Positions 43,955 through 63,322 of a DNA stretch of 64,000 nucleotides are shown one piece after another. Within the stretch, counting starts at the first letter, position 1; each line of letters begins with the position of its first letter. The stretch is from a virus: the IMG/VR virus record IMGVR_UViG_3300043411_001114, positions 48,367 to 112,366 of that record, one strand, 5' to 3'. Below the pieces are notes generated by a model that ran no database searches, was not told the DNA's origin, and worked only from the letters and a program-made list of their open reading frames with translations. The position numbers and the translations under genes are program-made.

Positions 43955-44553
43955 CCCTACCCAAACGCACTCTGACCGTGAATTTTCAGCGTTCGGTCAC
44001 TGCCGGGCAGGCCGACCTCCTTGAGGTCACGGTGACTCCCCTCGCCGAGCCGAGCGCCCCCTCCCAGTCGTCTCTGGTCGGGTTCAGCACCACCCAGGTC
44101 GTTGTCCTGGCCGATGAGTCCAATGCCGTGGAGTTCGAGTTGGTGCCCACCGACCATCCCGGCCTAACCGAGCGTGTCCTGTACCGCATCGCCTGGCGTC
44201 ACCGTTACCTCGGACGACAGTACGTCAAAGACTTCGTGATGCCCGACTTCGATGTCGCCTTCGAGGACTTGGAAGAACTCGGTAACGTCATTGGTGGCGA
44301 GACCTACGTCCAGTGGTCGGACCTCGACAGCCTGCCCCGCAAGGTCAACGTCGCGGTCGTCCCCACCACCGGTGCCGACGCCACAGTCACCCACAATCTG
44401 GGCACTGATGACCTGATCGCCGTCTTCCGGGACTCCAACACCGACGAGTCGGTGGTGCCTGTCTCATGGGCACCTATCGGCAGCAACACCATCACCGTGA
44501 CGTTTGAGACGGCACCCACCACCGGTCAATACCGGGCCATCGTCATCGGGTAA
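43951..44553 (+). CDS. Probable structural protein (200 aa)
   Basis: The product is beta-rich: an N-terminal Ig-like part (LTVNFQRSVTAGQADLLEVT ... YRIAWRHRYLGRQYVK) and a C-terminal part (DATVTHNLGTDDLIAVFRDS ... ITVTFETAPTTGQYRAIVIG) of the kind found in phage head-decoration or tail proteins. ATGA overlap with the glycosyltransferase suggests it may be the modified substrate. Lysis genes follow. Confidence 0.55.
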   Translation: MTLPKRTLTVNFQRSVTAGQADLLEVTVTPLAEPSAPSQSSLVGFSTTQVVVLADESNAVEFELVPTDHPGLTERVLYRIAWRHRYLGRQYVKDFVMPDFDVAFEDLEELGNVIGGETYVQWSDLDSLPRKVNVAVVPTTGADATVTHNLGTDDLIAVFRDSNTDESVVPVSWAPIGSNTITVTFETAPTTGQYRAIVIG

Positions 44554-44605: not shown

Positions 44606-45778
44606 GTGGTTCGGGTGACGCAACGGTTCTGGCCTCTCGCTGCGGGCCGCATCATCACCAGCCCTTACGGCCCCCGCGACGGCGGCTATCACTACGGCAC
44701 CGATTTCGGGTTCCCGGGCGGCTCCGCCGGGAAGCCGGTGTTTGCCATCGACTCGGGAATCGTCGTGTACAGCGGTGCCGCCCAAGGCTACGGCGGCCCC
44801 GACCCGGCCGGGTGGATCGTCATCAAGTCCGACTCCGGGGTCTGGGAGTACGGACACATCGTGCGGGAGCCTCACATCCGCCCGGGGGTGATGGTCGACG
44901 CCGGGACGAAGATCGCCACCATCAACCCCAACAGTGCCACCAACGGCGGTACCGCACCGCACCTGCACCTGTCCTGGATGCCGGGAAGGTATGACCCCAA
45001 CCAGAAGAAGGACCCGATCCCGGTTCTGCGTGACGCCGCCGAACCCGGGCCGATCAAGGAGAAGAACGTGGGCTGGAGTGGAGACCCCGTCTGGCTGGCT
45101 GACGTCCTGAAGAACTGGAAGAAGGGTTCTCGTCTCAAAACCGTCGAGATGCCCGACTGGAACCAGTACGGGCATGGCGACTTCGGGCAGATCTGGGGGG
45201 TGATGGTCCACCACACCGGCAACGCCAACGCCGACGCGATGTCGATCCGCAATGGCCGCCCCGACCTCGCCGGTCCGCTCTCCAACCTGCACATCGCCCA
45301 GGACGGGACGGTCACTGTGGTCGCGGCCGGGGTCTGCTGGCACGCCGGGTACGGCTCCTATCCGGGCATCCCCACCAACGGCGGCAATCAGGTTCTGATC
45401 GGCATCGAGTGTGCCTGGCCCCGCGACACCTCCATCACCCCGGCCACTCAGACCCGGGAACGGTGGCCCGACCCGCAGATCATCGCCATGCGTGACACGG
45501 TGGCCGCCATCCTCGACCGTCTCGGATATGGCCCCGACCGGGTGATTGCTCACAAGGAGTACGCCGGTCGCTCCCAGGGAAAATGGGACCCCGGCAACCT
45601 GGACATGAACTGGTTCCGCTCCGAGGTCGGCCTGGCCCAGCGTGGTCAGTTCATCCCCAAGCCGACACCCGTCCCCACACCGCCGGACACTTCCAAGGTC
45701 TATCCGCGCGACTACACCGACCGCGAGCTTCTCGAAGACATCTGGAAGACCCTGCAACCCCTGAAAGGCAAGTCATGA
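44606..45778 (+). CDS. lysA: Endolysin (LysA) with M23-like and amidase domains
   Basis: The 390-residue product has an M23 peptidase-like N-terminal domain (SPYGPRDGGYHYGTDFGFPG, then APHLHLSW) and an N-acetylmuramoyl-L-alanine amidase domain (WGVMVHHTGNANADAMSIRN ... LIGIECAW ... VIAHKEYAGRSQGKWDPGN), whose His residues bind zinc. It degrades peptidoglycan at lysis. The start is GTG 44606 or GTG 44615, which leaves GGAAGG at a better distance. Holin follows by overlap. Confidence 0.85.
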   Translation: MVRVTQRFWPLAAGRIITSPYGPRDGGYHYGTDFGFPGGSAGKPVFAIDSGIVVYSGAAQGYGGPDPAGWIVIKSDSGVWEYGHIVREPHIRPGVMVDAGTKIATINPNSATNGGTAPHLHLSWMPGRYDPNQKKDPIPVLRDAAEPGPIKEKNVGWSGDPVWLADVLKNWKKGSRLKTVEMPDWNQYGHGDFGQIWGVMVHHTGNANADAMSIRNGRPDLAGPLSNLHIAQDGTVTVVAAGVCWHAGYGSYPGIPTNGGNQVLIGIECAWPRDTSITPATQTRERWPDPQIIAMRDTVAAILDRLGYGPDRVIAHKEYAGRSQGKWDPGNLDMNWFRSEVGLAQRGQFIPKPTPVPTPPDTSKVYPRDYTDRELLEDIWKTLQPLKGKS

Positions 45779-46170
45779 TCTCCCTCCTGAAGCTCGACCC
45801 CCAGGTTCGGCAGTGGCTCTATGCGGTCGCCGCCTTCGCCTCGGCCCTCGTCCCGCTGCTGGTGACCTACAACGTCATCAGCGCCGAGTCCTCCAACTCC
45901 TGGCTGCAGTTGATCGGGATTCTCGGTGGTGTGGGTGCCGCCGGTGCCACCACCGCTGCGGTGGTCACCTCCAAGCAGCGCAAGGAGGGCACCCTGGACT
46001 TCACCGGTTCGGCCGACGAGCAGGCCGTCCAGGCTATCGAGTACACCGCCCACGCCGCCTCGGAGGGGGTGGCCCGGCTGCAGAAGATCATCCAGGCCGC
46101 CTCTTCCGCCGTGCCGCCCAACCCGGTGTCCCCCAACAGCGACCCGTCCAGCGCCAACTATCAGCCCTGA
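45775..46170 (+). CDS. Holin-like membrane protein
   Basis: The 131-residue product has two membrane segments (WLYAVAAFASALVPLLVTYN and LQLIGILGGVGAAGATTAAV) and a long cytoplasmic tail, a usual holin layout. It starts in the endolysin stop codon and precedes LysB, so the lysis order endolysin-holin-esterase is preserved. Holins set lysis time by opening the inner membrane. Confidence 0.75.
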   Translation: MISLLKLDPQVRQWLYAVAAFASALVPLLVTYNVISAESSNSWLQLIGILGGVGAAGATTAAVVTSKQRKEGTLDFTGSADEQAVQAIEYTAHAASEGVARLQKIIQAASSAVPPNPVSPNSDPSSANYQP

Positions 46171-46179
46171 GGATCATCT

Positions 46180-46830
46180 ATGTACATCGGCGGTCAGTGG
46201 GTAGGTCTCGGCCTGGGTGACAGCAGCCCCGAGGTGCGGGAACTCAAGCGCTTCATGAGGCGCAAGTTCTCCTACGCCAAGAACCTCGACGACACCACGC
46301 TCTACGACCAGGCGATGGTGACCGCTGTCGCCGACATGCAGGATGATGACGTTGTGGAAGAGTGGCGTTCTGTTTCGGGATATCCCGACTATGAGGTGTC
46401 AGATCAGGGACGAGTGCGGTCGTTTCGGAGAAACCGGCAGGGACAAGTGTTGCGCGTAAATCGCATCACTAACGGATACCTTCAGGTGAATCTGTACATA
46501 GGATCGGGAAAGGGGTCTCGCAAGCTGGTGCATCGGTTGGTTCTGGAGGCGTTTGTGGGACCGAAACCGTCTGGCCATGAGGCCTGTCATAACGACGGGG
46601 ATCAGACAAACAATCGACTCACCAACCTGCGTTGGGATACTCCTAAAAACAATGCTCGTGATGTGAAATTGCACGGTCGTCAATTTCAGGAAAACAAGAC
46701 TGAGTGCCCCCGGGGTCACAGCTATTCGGGAGACAACATCTACCACCGTCCTGGCGGCGGCCGGGGGTGCAAAGCGTGCCGCGCCGAAGCGACACGAAGG
46801 AGCAGGGCTAGAAGGTCATCATGCGTATAG
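46180..46830 (+). CDS. NUMOD4-HNH endonuclease fused to the displaced LysB N-terminus
   Basis: The 216-residue product begins with 54 residues (MYIGGQWVGLGLGDSSPEVR ... TAVADMQ) about 63% identical to the start of the LysB protein downstream. It then continues as a NUMOD4-HNH enzyme: EEWRSVSGYPDYEVSDQGRV, VHRLVLEAFVGPKPSGHEAC, HNDGDQTNNRLTNLRW and CPRGHSYSGDNIYHRPGG. The first 162 bases are GC-rich like the native gene; the endonuclease is AT-richer. The likely reading is that an HNH gene entered lysB and took over its original 5' end. GAGGATC precedes the ATG. Confidence 0.82.
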   Translation: MYIGGQWVGLGLGDSSPEVRELKRFMRRKFSYAKNLDDTTLYDQAMVTAVADMQDDDVVEEWRSVSGYPDYEVSDQGRVRSFRRNRQGQVLRVNRITNGYLQVNLYIGSGKGSRKLVHRLVLEAFVGPKPSGHEACHNDGDQTNNRLTNLRWDTPKNNARDVKLHGRQFQENKTECPRGHSYSGDNIYHRPGGGRGCKACRAEATRRSRARRSSCV

Positions 46831-47000
46831 GTGGACAGTACGTTGGCATAGGTCTTGGGGATTCCAGCGAAGAAGTCGGCAAGATTCGTGATTTTGGAAG
46901 ACGAAAGTTTTCGTACTGGAAGGACCTTCCTGACGCGCGAAACGCACAGGGGCTTCCGTTGTATGACGAGGCGATGGCCGCCGCTGTAGCCGAGACTCAG
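46342..47000 (+). mobile_element. HNH element with a recoded replacement of the LysB 5' end
   Basis: The segment from after the first ADMQ codons (ending 46341) to the matching AETQ codons (ending 47000) contains the HNH body plus a second version of the LysB N-terminal region. That version is AT-richer and differs from the displaced copy at nearly every third position. If the segment is removed, ADMQ joins ARYNTGF and a normal LysB results. So the element appears to carry a repair patch that restores its target. Borders are inferred from the two protein copies. Confidence 0.7.
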
Positions 47001-47855
47001 GCCCGCTACAACACCGGTTTCGGTCAGTTGGCGACCGGCAAGTATGTCCCGGGCATCGTCAACTACGAGACCAAGGTCGTGATGGGCTTCATTCCCCGAC
47101 CGAAGCGTCCCGACCAGCGCCCGATGCTGTTCAGCGTCTGCGGCACCGGGGTCCCGTGGTGGGTCGGCCCGGACGCCGACACCGCCCGCGCGGTCGAGGA
47201 CAAGTACCGCTGGCAGCCGATCGGCTACCCGGCCACCGCCGTCCCGATGGGCAAATCCATCCAGGCCGGGAAGGACGAACTGGAGAACCAGTTCCACATC
47301 CACCGCGAGCAGATCATCGCCTACGGTGCCGCGCTCCTAGGCTACAGCCAGGGCGCGATCGTCGTCTCCGAGTTGTTCGAGGAGCAGATTCGTCCGATCT
47401 CAGGCCGTCTTCGGTGGGCCTACCTTCACCTCACCAAGGCCTGCACCTGGGGCAATCCGAGCCGCGAGAAGGGCAAGGTCTGGCCCGACGCCGGTGGGCC
47501 GCCCGCCTCACCGCACACCCGGGGTGTCGTCGACAATCGCATGATCGACACCCCCGACTGGTGGCGTAACTACGCCCATAAGGGCGATCTGTACACCGAC
47601 TGTCCGGACGATGAGTCGGGCGAGAACCGGACCGCGATCTGGAAGCTGATCCGTAACGGAGACGCCTTCCGAGGCCCCGACAGCCTGCTGCGCCAGGTGC
47701 TGGAGTTGACCGGCACCGTCCGCGACGCCCACCAGATCAGCGAGACGACCGGGATGGTGAAGGCGATGATGGATGCCCTGATCTTCTTCGGCAAACAAAC
47801 TCGCCCTCATGTGAACTATTCGACCTCCGAGGCGATTGCGTACCTGAGGTCATGA
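46821..47855 (+). CDS. lysB: LysB mycolylarabinogalactan esterase
   Basis: The 344-residue product has an N-terminal peptidoglycan-binding-like part (residues 1-85) and an alpha/beta-hydrolase domain with the nucleophile motif ALLGYSQGAIVVSE, then DTPDWWRNYAHKGDLYT. LysB enzymes cut mycolic acids from arabinogalactan in the last lysis step, which implies a mycolate-bearing host. The first about 60 codons are AT-richer and differently coded from the rest, with the switch near 46975-47000. The ATG lies inside the HNH gene, after GAAGG. Confidence 0.85.
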   Translation: MRIGGQYVGIGLGDSSEEVGKIRDFGRRKFSYWKDLPDARNAQGLPLYDEAMAAAVAETQARYNTGFGQLATGKYVPGIVNYETKVVMGFIPRPKRPDQRPMLFSVCGTGVPWWVGPDADTARAVEDKYRWQPIGYPATAVPMGKSIQAGKDELENQFHIHREQIIAYGAALLGYSQGAIVVSELFEEQIRPISGRLRWAYLHLTKACTWGNPSREKGKVWPDAGGPPASPHTRGVVDNRMIDTPDWWRNYAHKGDLYTDCPDDESGENRTAIWKLIRNGDAFRGPDSLLRQVLELTGTVRDAHQISETTGMVKAMMDALIFFGKQTRPHVNYSTSEAIAYLRS

Positions 47856-62056: not shown

Positions 62057-63322
62057 ATGCCCAAGCACGGACTCACCACCAGCAGCAACTCCAACAAGAC
62101 CGCCCGGGCGACCGTCGCCCGGTGGAACGACAAGGTCAAGCGCCACACCCTTTACACGGTGTGCGGCACCAGCCAGGACGGCTGGGGGCTGATGACCCGG
62201 CCCACCGACTCGAATGGCCTCAACGCGCTGCTGGCCCTGGCCCGGACCCTGACCGGCAACAACTCGCTGCAGTTGAGCGACCTCCCGTCCACCGGCGAGT
62301 ACACCCCGGTGTGGGCCTCCTCGTTCGACACCGCCACCGCGCGCCAGGTGAACTCCAGCCTGTACAACTGGGTGCCGATCAGCTACCCGGCCGGTGGCCC
62401 GGGGGTCAACGGCGGACTGGAGAACAACTGGCAGCCGACCGGGTTGTCGATGGCGGCCTCGGTCAAGATGGGTGTCGATGAGTTGACCCGTCAGATCAAG
62501 GCGACCCCGGGTACCTTCGCCCTGATCGGCATGAGCCAGGGTTCGGTGGTGATCAGCCAGGTCCTTAAATCGCTGCTCCCCGGCGGCGCGCTGGCCAGCC
62601 GCTACAAAGACTGCATCGCAGGGGTCGCGTTCGGCAACCCGTGCCGGGCAATCGGGGCCTCCTTCCCGGGCGGCACCCCCGCCTTCGGTGGTGGCGTGTT
62701 GACCTTCCCCAACCCGGCCGAGCCGATCACTGGCGGCCTGAACGGGGTCAAGACCCCGAACTGGTGGTGGGAGATGTCGCTGACCGGAGACTTCTTCTCC
62801 TCGGCCCCGATGCACACCGCCGCCGGGCCGATCCTCACCCCGGCCGTCCAGGCCCTGTTCCGTTTCCCGGGCGGGATGGCGCTGGACGCCAACAGTCTGG
62901 TCGTGATCCTCGGCCTGCTCACCGGTGCCGGGGCCTCGCTGCCGTTGCTGCTGGCCTCCCTGGTGCGGACCGGTTTCTTCAACGCCTCCACGATCTCCAG
63001 CTTCATGGGCGGCGGCGAGGCGAAGGGTCTGCTCTCGATGCTGGCCCAGAAGCAGAAGCAGTCAGCCTCCTCCATCCTCTCGCAGTGGATTTACGACCAG
63101 ATCGGGGCGCTGAACCTCGGTGCCAGCCTGGCCACCGGTGCCCCGGTGATCACCCCGAGCAACACCTACCCGAACGCGAACCCGCACATCCGGTACGGGC
63201 TGGATAAGCCGCCGACCCTGCCGGTCTGGTCGGGCCTGACCGGCCTCAACGGAAACTCGACCTTCGTCGACGTCGCGGTCGCCTACCTCAATCGTCGGGC
63301 GGTCGAGGTCGCGCCCCGGTAA
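62057..63322 (+). CDS. Cutinase/LysB-like serine esterase
   Basis: The 421-residue product has a serine-esterase nucleophile elbow (FALIGMSQGSVVISQVLKSL) and FGNPCRAIGASFPGG, the layout of cutinase-like and LysB-like enzymes. A hydrophobic insert is seen around residues 290-310 (LVVILGLLTGAGASLPLLLA). It is a second potential cell-wall lipid esterase besides LysB and is paired with the glycosidase-like gene, so the two may be virion-associated proteins acting on the host envelope. A terminator follows. Confidence 0.72.
   Translation: MPKHGLTTSSNSNKTARATVARWNDKVKRHTLYTVCGTSQDGWGLMTRPTDSNGLNALLALARTLTGNNSLQLSDLPSTGEYTPVWASSFDTATARQVNSSLYNWVPISYPAGGPGVNGGLENNWQPTGLSMAASVKMGVDELTRQIKATPGTFALIGMSQGSVVISQVLKSLLPGGALASRYKDCIAGVAFGNPCRAIGASFPGGTPAFGGGVLTFPNPAEPITGGLNGVKTPNWWWEMSLTGDFFSSAPMHTAAGPILTPAVQALFRFPGGMALDANSLVVILGLLTGAGASLPLLLASLVRTGFFNASTISSFMGGGEAKGLLSMLAQKQKQSASSILSQWIYDQIGALNLGASLATGAPVITPSNTYPNANPHIRYGLDKPPTLPVWSGLTGLNGNSTFVDVAVAYLNRRAVEVAPR

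Follow-up and report, generated by a model that had tools for sequence, protein, structure and literature searches.

Comparison with related phages indicates that an HNH endonuclease element displaced the 5′ end of a lysB gene and brought a divergent replacement with it. This reading, first made from the sequence alone, held in our analysis: empty sites in relatives match the displaced copy, while the replacement groups with cluster F1 mycobacteriophages. The locus lies in the window, the whole stretch of 64,000 nt that was analyzed, which comes from a single metagenomic contig. We consider it likely that the element is a free-standing NUMOD4-HNH homing element composed of a nuclease gene and a diverged end of its target gene, here called the patch. 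The comparisons reveal paired gene ends, empty sites, a foreign and HNH-linked second copy of the lysB start, joint spread of the nuclease and the patch, and the same layout at other genes.

Organization and Codon Use of the Interrupted lysB Locus

ORF A (46180-46830, + strand, 216 aa) joins LysB residues 1-54, ending in AVADMQ, in frame to DDDVVEEWRSVSGYPDYEVS, the beginning of a protein with NUMOD4 and HNH_3 domains. Its first part, copy 1 (46180-46341, +; codons 1-54, MYIGGQWVGLG...AVADMQ), is the displaced native lysB 5′ end, as judged from its identity to HNH-less relatives and from a third-position GC content (GC3) of 0.89, as in the flanking genes. As judged from the spacing to the ATG at 46180, the original lysB start probably used TGAGGA at 46168-46173 (+) as its ribosome-binding site, which would now serve the LysB-HNH fusion. 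The endonuclease part (46342-46830, +; stop codon TAG at 46828-46830; GC3 0.57) matches PHROG 1492 (E 1e-64) and contains a NUMOD4 domain at residues 60-106 (PF07463, E 6e-13) and an HNH_3 domain at residues 115-160 (PF13392, E 2e-12), the latter Pfam profile being matched over its whole length. Residues H63, C81-H82, N90-R91, and N94-L95 are invariant in five lysB-linked HNH proteins.

ORF B (46821-47855, +, 344 aa) is open throughout and encodes a complete LysB (PHROG 102, E 1.8e-97). Its start overlaps the HNH stop codon, the overlap being 10 bp, and AGAAGG (46810-46815, +), located within the HNH gene 5 bp ahead of the ATG, is the probable ribosome-binding site of the patched lysB. Codons 1-47 (46821-46961, +; GC3 0.49) form the core of copy 2, the element-linked replacement 5′ end. 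They are followed by a transition zone of intermediate codon use (codons 48-60, 46962-47000, +) that contains the right recombination junction, and then by the native LysB body (47001-47855, +), a cutinase-like mycolylarabinogalactan esterase region recognized by its identity to relatives, a GC3 of 0.87 and the match to PHROG 102. The two N-termini are 63% identical, and copy 2 has an extra 6-aa insertion. The sequence-only reading had described two LysB N-terminal versions flanking a NUMOD4-HNH gene, the first fused in frame to it and the second starting inside it with its own ribosome site, and each of these points was borne out.

The left flank, in the same operon, consists of a LysA-like endolysin gene (44606-45778, +), taken from the ORF list and compared with the operon of the relatives L011-L016, and a small gene between lysA and lysB (45776-46170, +), holin-like by position only, which has the same place in the gene order of L010-L016. 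Two more proteins of the same 112-kb contig weakly resemble the LysB esterase region (38% and 32%); they are encoded at contig positions 110666-111181 (about 62300-62815 in the window) and 44108-44440.

None of 1,259 47-codon windows in flanking genes had a GC3 as low as that of copy 2, the minimum being 0.68, and the two copies share the same codon at only 13 of the 34 residues at which they are identical. Copy 2 had been described as AT-rich with changed wobble bases. The description stands, but the wobble differences are those expected of a long-diverged homologue, so that there is no need to invoke deliberate recoding. On the left side, the junction is sharp and follows directly on ATGCAG at 46341. 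The right junction lies somewhere in ORF B codons 48-60, with the best statistical breakpoint at about alignment codon 54 (permutation p = 0.0005); given the intermediate codon use in this zone, the claim that composition switches back to native exactly where copy 1 ends was not upheld, as the junction is not codon-exact.

Uninterrupted Relatives and the Ancestry of the Second 5′ End

At least seven HNH-less IMG/VR relatives (L010, L011, L014, L041, L042, L044, and L050) encode LysB in one piece, with the 6-aa insertion missing, and L014 reads ADMQARYNTG straight across the insertion site of the window, which is the direct joining of native ADMQ to ARYNTG that had been anticipated for genes without the HNH insertion. 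The operon of the relatives runs from a lysA-like gene through the small gene to lysB and usually terminase, with no HNH gene in L010, L011, L014, or L015/L016. The HNH gene is a present/absent polymorphism at one site, which is empty in L010-L016 and L041-L050. A search of genome contigs yielded two LysB relatives only, both without HNH. The LysB body of the window is 72-74% identical to the bodies of L010, L011, and L014. Copy 1 is 67-72% identical to the N-termini of most of the relatives L010, L011, L014, L041, L042, and L044, compared to 52-67% for copy 2, and the L050 N-terminus is 60% identical to copy 1 and 57% to copy 2. HNH-less relatives could have favored copy 2; the close ones match copy 1 instead.

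In relatives, the counterparts of copy 1 and the native body lie almost directly next to each other, which is expected of a clean insertion and would also suit a self-splicing intron with an HNH ORF. In that case, splicing would remove the 662-base segment that separates copy 1 from the body and join the two into LysB. HNH genes are often found in group I introns, which are usually preceded by a U. In JalFarm20 (L039:1748-3485), a window-related HNH gene lies antisense within a split lysA whose annotation joins two pieces. However, the base before the left junction is G, and copy 2 retains its start codon and ribosome site and is in frame with the body. Furthermore, F1 phages and the environmental relative L051 keep no more than 4-8 codons from the native start, so the patch must encode LysB there. 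There was no Rfam match at 45900-47300, although this negative is weak because the split lysA region of JalFarm20 gave none either. We regard an intron as very improbable. As ORF A ends in a stop codon, the element is not an intein.

A search of 50,697 phage records gave the LysB N-termini of cluster F1 mycobacteriophages as the best matches to copy 2. The band of 80-90% identity to copy 2 comprised 22 records, and the same 22 have an HNH gene, annotated or not, directly upstream. Copy 2 is 83% identical to the N-terminus of KingMidas and 78% identical to that of Ramsey, whereas the bodies of these proteins are 59% and 58% identical to that of the window. In the N-terminal tree, copy 2 grouped with the HNH-linked F1 phages Ramsey, Eish, Galactic, and KingMidas (bootstrap 98), unlike in the body tree, where the window LysB grouped with its environmental relatives. 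AU tests on the N-terminal tree rejected both copy 1 and copy 2 as sisters (p = 0.005) and a position of copy 2 among native N-termini (p = 0.006). A topology with copy 1 beside copy 2 and the F1 clade was not rejected (p = 0.13), as expected for trees built on 61 columns. Because it groups with the HNH-linked F1 starts despite a body identity of 58-59%, copy 2 is, on these comparisons, a gene end of foreign origin that goes with the nuclease, and not a local duplicate. What had been called a recoded replacement is indeed a divergent replacement, but the identities and trees are better read as those of an old foreign homologue that is linked to the nuclease. A related N-terminus (72-75%) occurs without an upstream HNH gene in cluster O phages, so this type of N-terminus is not exclusive to the element.

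The presence of two homologous N-termini could also be due to an ancient tandem duplication of this part of LysB that the HNH gene split later. Tandem N-termini in relatives lacking an endonuclease had been named as a sign of such a history, and none were seen in the HNH-less relatives inspected. In addition, the copies are not each other's closest relatives according to the rejected sister topology, and copy 2 is closest to F1 phages with the low body identities given above. A duplication origin is therefore extremely improbable.

Joint Spread of Nuclease and Patch in Mycobacteriophages

Of 337 records matching the Ramsey HNH-lysB segment, 22 carry the HNH gene and the patch and match across the segment, and the HNH-less records listed among these matches all match from lysB codon 48 onward only. 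The LysB bodies of Ramsey and PopTart are 96% identical, compared to 69% for their N-termini. In HNH-bearing F1 phages, near-identical N-termini are joined to LysB bodies whose monophyly is rejected (AU test, 3e-7), which indicates that several lysB lineages have received the nuclease together with the patch. When these genes are compared with their closest HNH-less counterparts, the lysB sequences become nearly identical from codon 46-49 onward in six F1 phages and from codon 15 in Mozy (ArcusAngelus was left out of this scoring). When 97 LysB loci were surveyed, the insertion-type N-terminus was present at 8 of 11 HNH-bearing loci vs. 2 of 86 others, both of the latter from cluster O; the three remaining HNH-bearing loci have a changed start (Mozy and MisterCuddles) or a displaced remnant (Mozy and L051).

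In MisterCuddles and Girr, the element precedes a different LysB, with 28% identity to that of the window. The lysB DNA of MisterCuddles is mostly 96-100% identical to that of HNH-less LilSpotty from about codon 31, compared to 46-63% before this point, and the GC3 of the first 14 codons is 0.43 in MisterCuddles vs. 0.79 in LilSpotty. The patch is about 14 codons long in Mozy, about 30 in MisterCuddles, and 45-48 in the Ramsey and KingMidas types. In the window, Mozy, and MisterCuddles, which have three diverged elements, HNH stop and lysB start overlap as GCGTATAG. Expression of Girr gp32, an HNH protein of the MisterCuddles type, was moderately toxic to M. smegmatis (PMC11075535), in keeping with an active nuclease. 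The HNH gene between lysA and lysB is apparently unannotated in Eish (NC_051651.1), Inventum (KM066034.1), ArcusAngelus (MH744415.1), and Flathead (MN369752.1).

As the window derives from one metagenomic contig, one might suspect an assembly chimera of two related phages. The same layout nevertheless recurs in numerous isolate genomes (Ramsey, KingMidas, Mozy, Girr, and others) as well as at unrelated genes, and the HNH and lysB genes of Mozy and MisterCuddles share the exact 10-bp overlap of ORFs A and B. An assembly artifact is thus scarcely credible.

Remnants of the native start differ in length. Between the lysA stop and the HNH gene, Mozy has the displaced start ATGCGCATCGACGGGCAGTATGT (8 codons) and KingMidas has ATGCGCATCGAC (4 codons). 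L051, whose body is 66% identical to that of the window, has the remnant GTGAGGATCGACGGAGCATTGGG of about 8 codons, followed by a leader, the HNH gene and the new lysB start. The patched lysB of L051 lacks an ATG, GTG, or TTG where a start is expected (L051:1619-1700), and would start at ATT or from an ATG within the HNH gene.

A shared two-hairpin leader opens the HNH genes at lysB in Ramsey, Mozy, L051, and MisterCuddles and at lysA in L129 (L002:2428-2500, L001:2415-2490, L032:1744-1816, L051:912-985, and L129:2927-3000). It reads TAACCC...GAGGGGCTAGCA, the second hairpin includes a GAGGGG ribosome site, and the hairpins have compensatory change in two pairs among six sequences. Rfam symR matches in the leader were far below threshold and were ignored. 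A translational brake has reportedly been found for mobE, and by analogy the leader could possibly be one. The window element has no leader, and its nuclease would be read from the old lysB start. The suggestion that the element gains the translation start of its target applies to the window and to the L154 and L193 loci described below, in which the nuclease is in frame from the displaced start, but not to most F1 phages, where it keeps its own leader and start.

Paired Gene Ends Beyond lysB

At related HNH loci, we looked for peptides that recur on the two sides of the HNH gene, with ORFs of the same contigs as controls. Since loose criteria produced 19 false matches in 380 control positions, the counts are based on a strict criterion. 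In this way, 9 of 175 non-identical HNH loci were positive, compared to 1 of 316 control ORFs (Fisher p = 0.0006, or p = 0.02 with the largest family, of 3′-end genes, collapsed to one event). The window falls just short of the cut-off of 60% gapped identity and does not belong to these nine. Matches at L026, L166, and L223 were chance-like and were discounted as cases, although L223 is still counted among the nine. The prevalence obtained is a lower bound, since remnants under about 11 codons are missed.

The sequence-only reading had suggested looking for other HNH genes between paired target-gene ends, and such pairs, with the two ends encoded differently, were found at lysA, at ATPase and YqaJ genes and at 3′ ends. 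At the AAA/Sak4-like ATPase gene of L154, the displaced MPTLDTVDTGSA is in frame with the HNH gene and the patch reads MPSLDTVDTGSA; an HNH-less close relative of this ATPase was looked for and not found. At the YqaJ recombinase gene of L193, the displaced MMQVFTDLEQGSEAW is fused at the HNH protein's own W and the patch reads MVVFTDLEQGSEVW, with a visible 5′ identity dip relative to HNH-less L343 in a comparison whose offsets are imperfect. At lysA of L129, a mycobacteriophage-like contig, the displaced VSFTWFAARPLHTRGVHEL is followed by the leader, the HNH gene and the patch MSFVWLAERPLMTREEIARAVHEV; this case came from the looser scan and was confirmed by eye.

The layout is found mirror-wise at the 3′ ends of two small genes, one in the L020/L160/L169 family and one in L200. 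In the former (L020, L160, L169, L296, and partly L295), KNSKGKYVMRIEDIS stands before the HNH gene and the displaced native KNVKGRYVLRVEDIS after it. L288, L289, L291, and L293 of this family have the patch and no visible remnant, as expected if remnants decay. Third-base identity between L283 and L169 is 94% in the patch and 37% in the gene body, where it is saturated, which indicates that the patch travels with the nuclease and not with the gene.

As counter-evidence, not every HNH insertion has a patch. We compared the tape measure gene in Dylan, Catdawg, and Firecracker (L377, L378, and L379) and found that in Firecracker a different HNH gene lies directly after the tape measure ATG, with ACG where the ATG of the gene itself would be, and without a patch. 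The tape measure gene left without an ATG matches an open start-codon puzzle in PMC4351075. A patch at the cluster O tape-measure HNH, suspected from the same paper, was ruled out, the insertion being a simple one.

Discussion

We propose that the element moves when an HNH-less phage meets an HNH-bearing one and the nuclease introduces a nick or cut into the uninvaded lysB, close to the 5′ end of the gene. Repair from the HNH-bearing genome, with the lysB body as one homology arm, would copy in the nuclease and the patch together. The patch would then provide a full 5′ end, in frame and with a ribosome site of its own, keeping LysB functional, and the patched allele should no longer be a nuclease substrate because its DNA differs from the native end. 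The native 5′ end, stranded upstream, would decay unless it serves as the translation start of the nuclease, as appears to be the case in the window. We infer cutting, repair and immunity, as well as expression of the patched LysB and of the fusion nuclease, from the arrangement of the genes; it is most likely that the element restores the gene it cuts, and it probably protects it.

Since the native DNA of copy 1 is intact, the window would still contain any target confined to codons 1-54. The target must therefore span the codon 54/55 junction, or the nuclease must be inactive. A predicted target to consider for the window nuclease is GCCGACATGCAG^GCCCGCTACAAC, and the layout predicts in the same way where each nuclease would cut. 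The idea is directly testable, since sequenced M. smegmatis phages exist with the element (Ramsey, KingMidas, Mozy, and Girr) and without it (BuzzLyseyear and PopTart).

Alternatively, a foreign lysB start may merely have been copied along with the HNH gene during homing, as ordinary co-conversion, without being a maintained part of the element. Co-conversion of flanks is a known result of phage homing (PMC2988022), and the related N-terminus of HNH-less cluster O phages and the variable patch lengths (about 14 to 48 codons across the Mozy, MisterCuddles, and Ramsey/KingMidas types) are in line with it. However, all HNH-bearing lysB genes that are comparable with close HNH-less genes keep a divergent start, and patches are HNH-like in composition (GC3 0.4-0.5 in the first codons) within GC-rich genes. 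Moreover, the same HNH-stop/lysB-start overlap recurs in three diverged elements, and the conservation of third positions in the 3′-end patch, next to a saturated body, indicates that the same patch stayed with the nuclease through many recipients. We consider co-conversion alone unlikely, and favor a patch that is a maintained part of the homing element.

The closest precedent is provided by the mORFs of fungal mitochondria, found in Allomyces macrogynus atp6 and in Glomus/Rhizophagus atp6, atp9, cox2, and nad3 (PMC3630166). These likewise consist of an endonuclease ORF beside a foreign end that makes the invaded gene whole again, with the native end displaced; the native and foreign ends are strongly diverged at wobble positions (63.5% DNA and 91% protein identity for atp6), and trees suggest horizontal transfer (PMC3630166). 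In the window, too, native and foreign end copies flank an endonuclease gene, and the inserted end is in frame and phylogenetically foreign. Differences lie in the mitochondrial setting of mORFs, their LAGLIDADG or GIY-YIG nucleases and their patches, which are C-terminal only (PMC3630166), whereas elements of the window type reside in phage genomes and have NUMOD4-HNH nucleases and patches at both 5′ and 3′ ends. The window element works like a mORF, yet is not a member of that group, as it is a phage element with an HNH nuclease and an N-terminal patch.

Several phage systems share some of these features. The free-standing SegA-G and MobA-E of T4-like phages resemble the window element in having a nuclease beside its presumed target, a sporadic distribution and co-conversion of flanks, but they cleave within different genes, at distances of hundreds to thousands of bp from their own, and the available part of PMC2988022 describes no carried, duplicated target-gene end for this intronless homing. 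Aeh1 mobE in nrdA and T4 mobA in gene 60 are also HNH homing genes within essential phage genes; nrdA and gene 60 are split into separately encoded parts, while the lysB of the window is restored as one continuous gene. The tape measure HNH of Corndog and Firecracker is inserted exactly at the gene start and takes over the ATG (PMC4351075), but it is a simple insertion without a patch and the tape measure gene keeps 99% native DNA. Finally, the I-HmuI-like HNH endonucleases of lactococcal Skunavirus are a phage family with varied insertion sites for which marker exclusion was shown in vivo; carried gene ends are not mentioned in the abstract of PMC12724721. A description of patch-carrying homing elements in phages was not found in the open-licence literature. 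Gene-end patching in phages would thus be a new version of a known fungal-type arrangement, and there is good evidence for its generality.

Homing endonuclease genes are thought to be tolerated through sitting in introns, inteins or between genes. The layout reported here points to another route in phages, which is to invade a coding sequence and carry the repair. It seems fairly probable that phages host a general class of homing elements, each consisting of a nuclease and a gene-end patch, that invade the edges of essential genes at the 5′ or 3′ end and restore the coding sequence from a cleavage-resistant version that the element carries. Such elements would be natural counterparts of 'recode and rescue' gene drives and offer a natural parallel to engineered rescue drives. 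In mycobacteriophages, they would explain the abrupt mosaicism of LysB N-termini, which otherwise resembles ordinary recombination.
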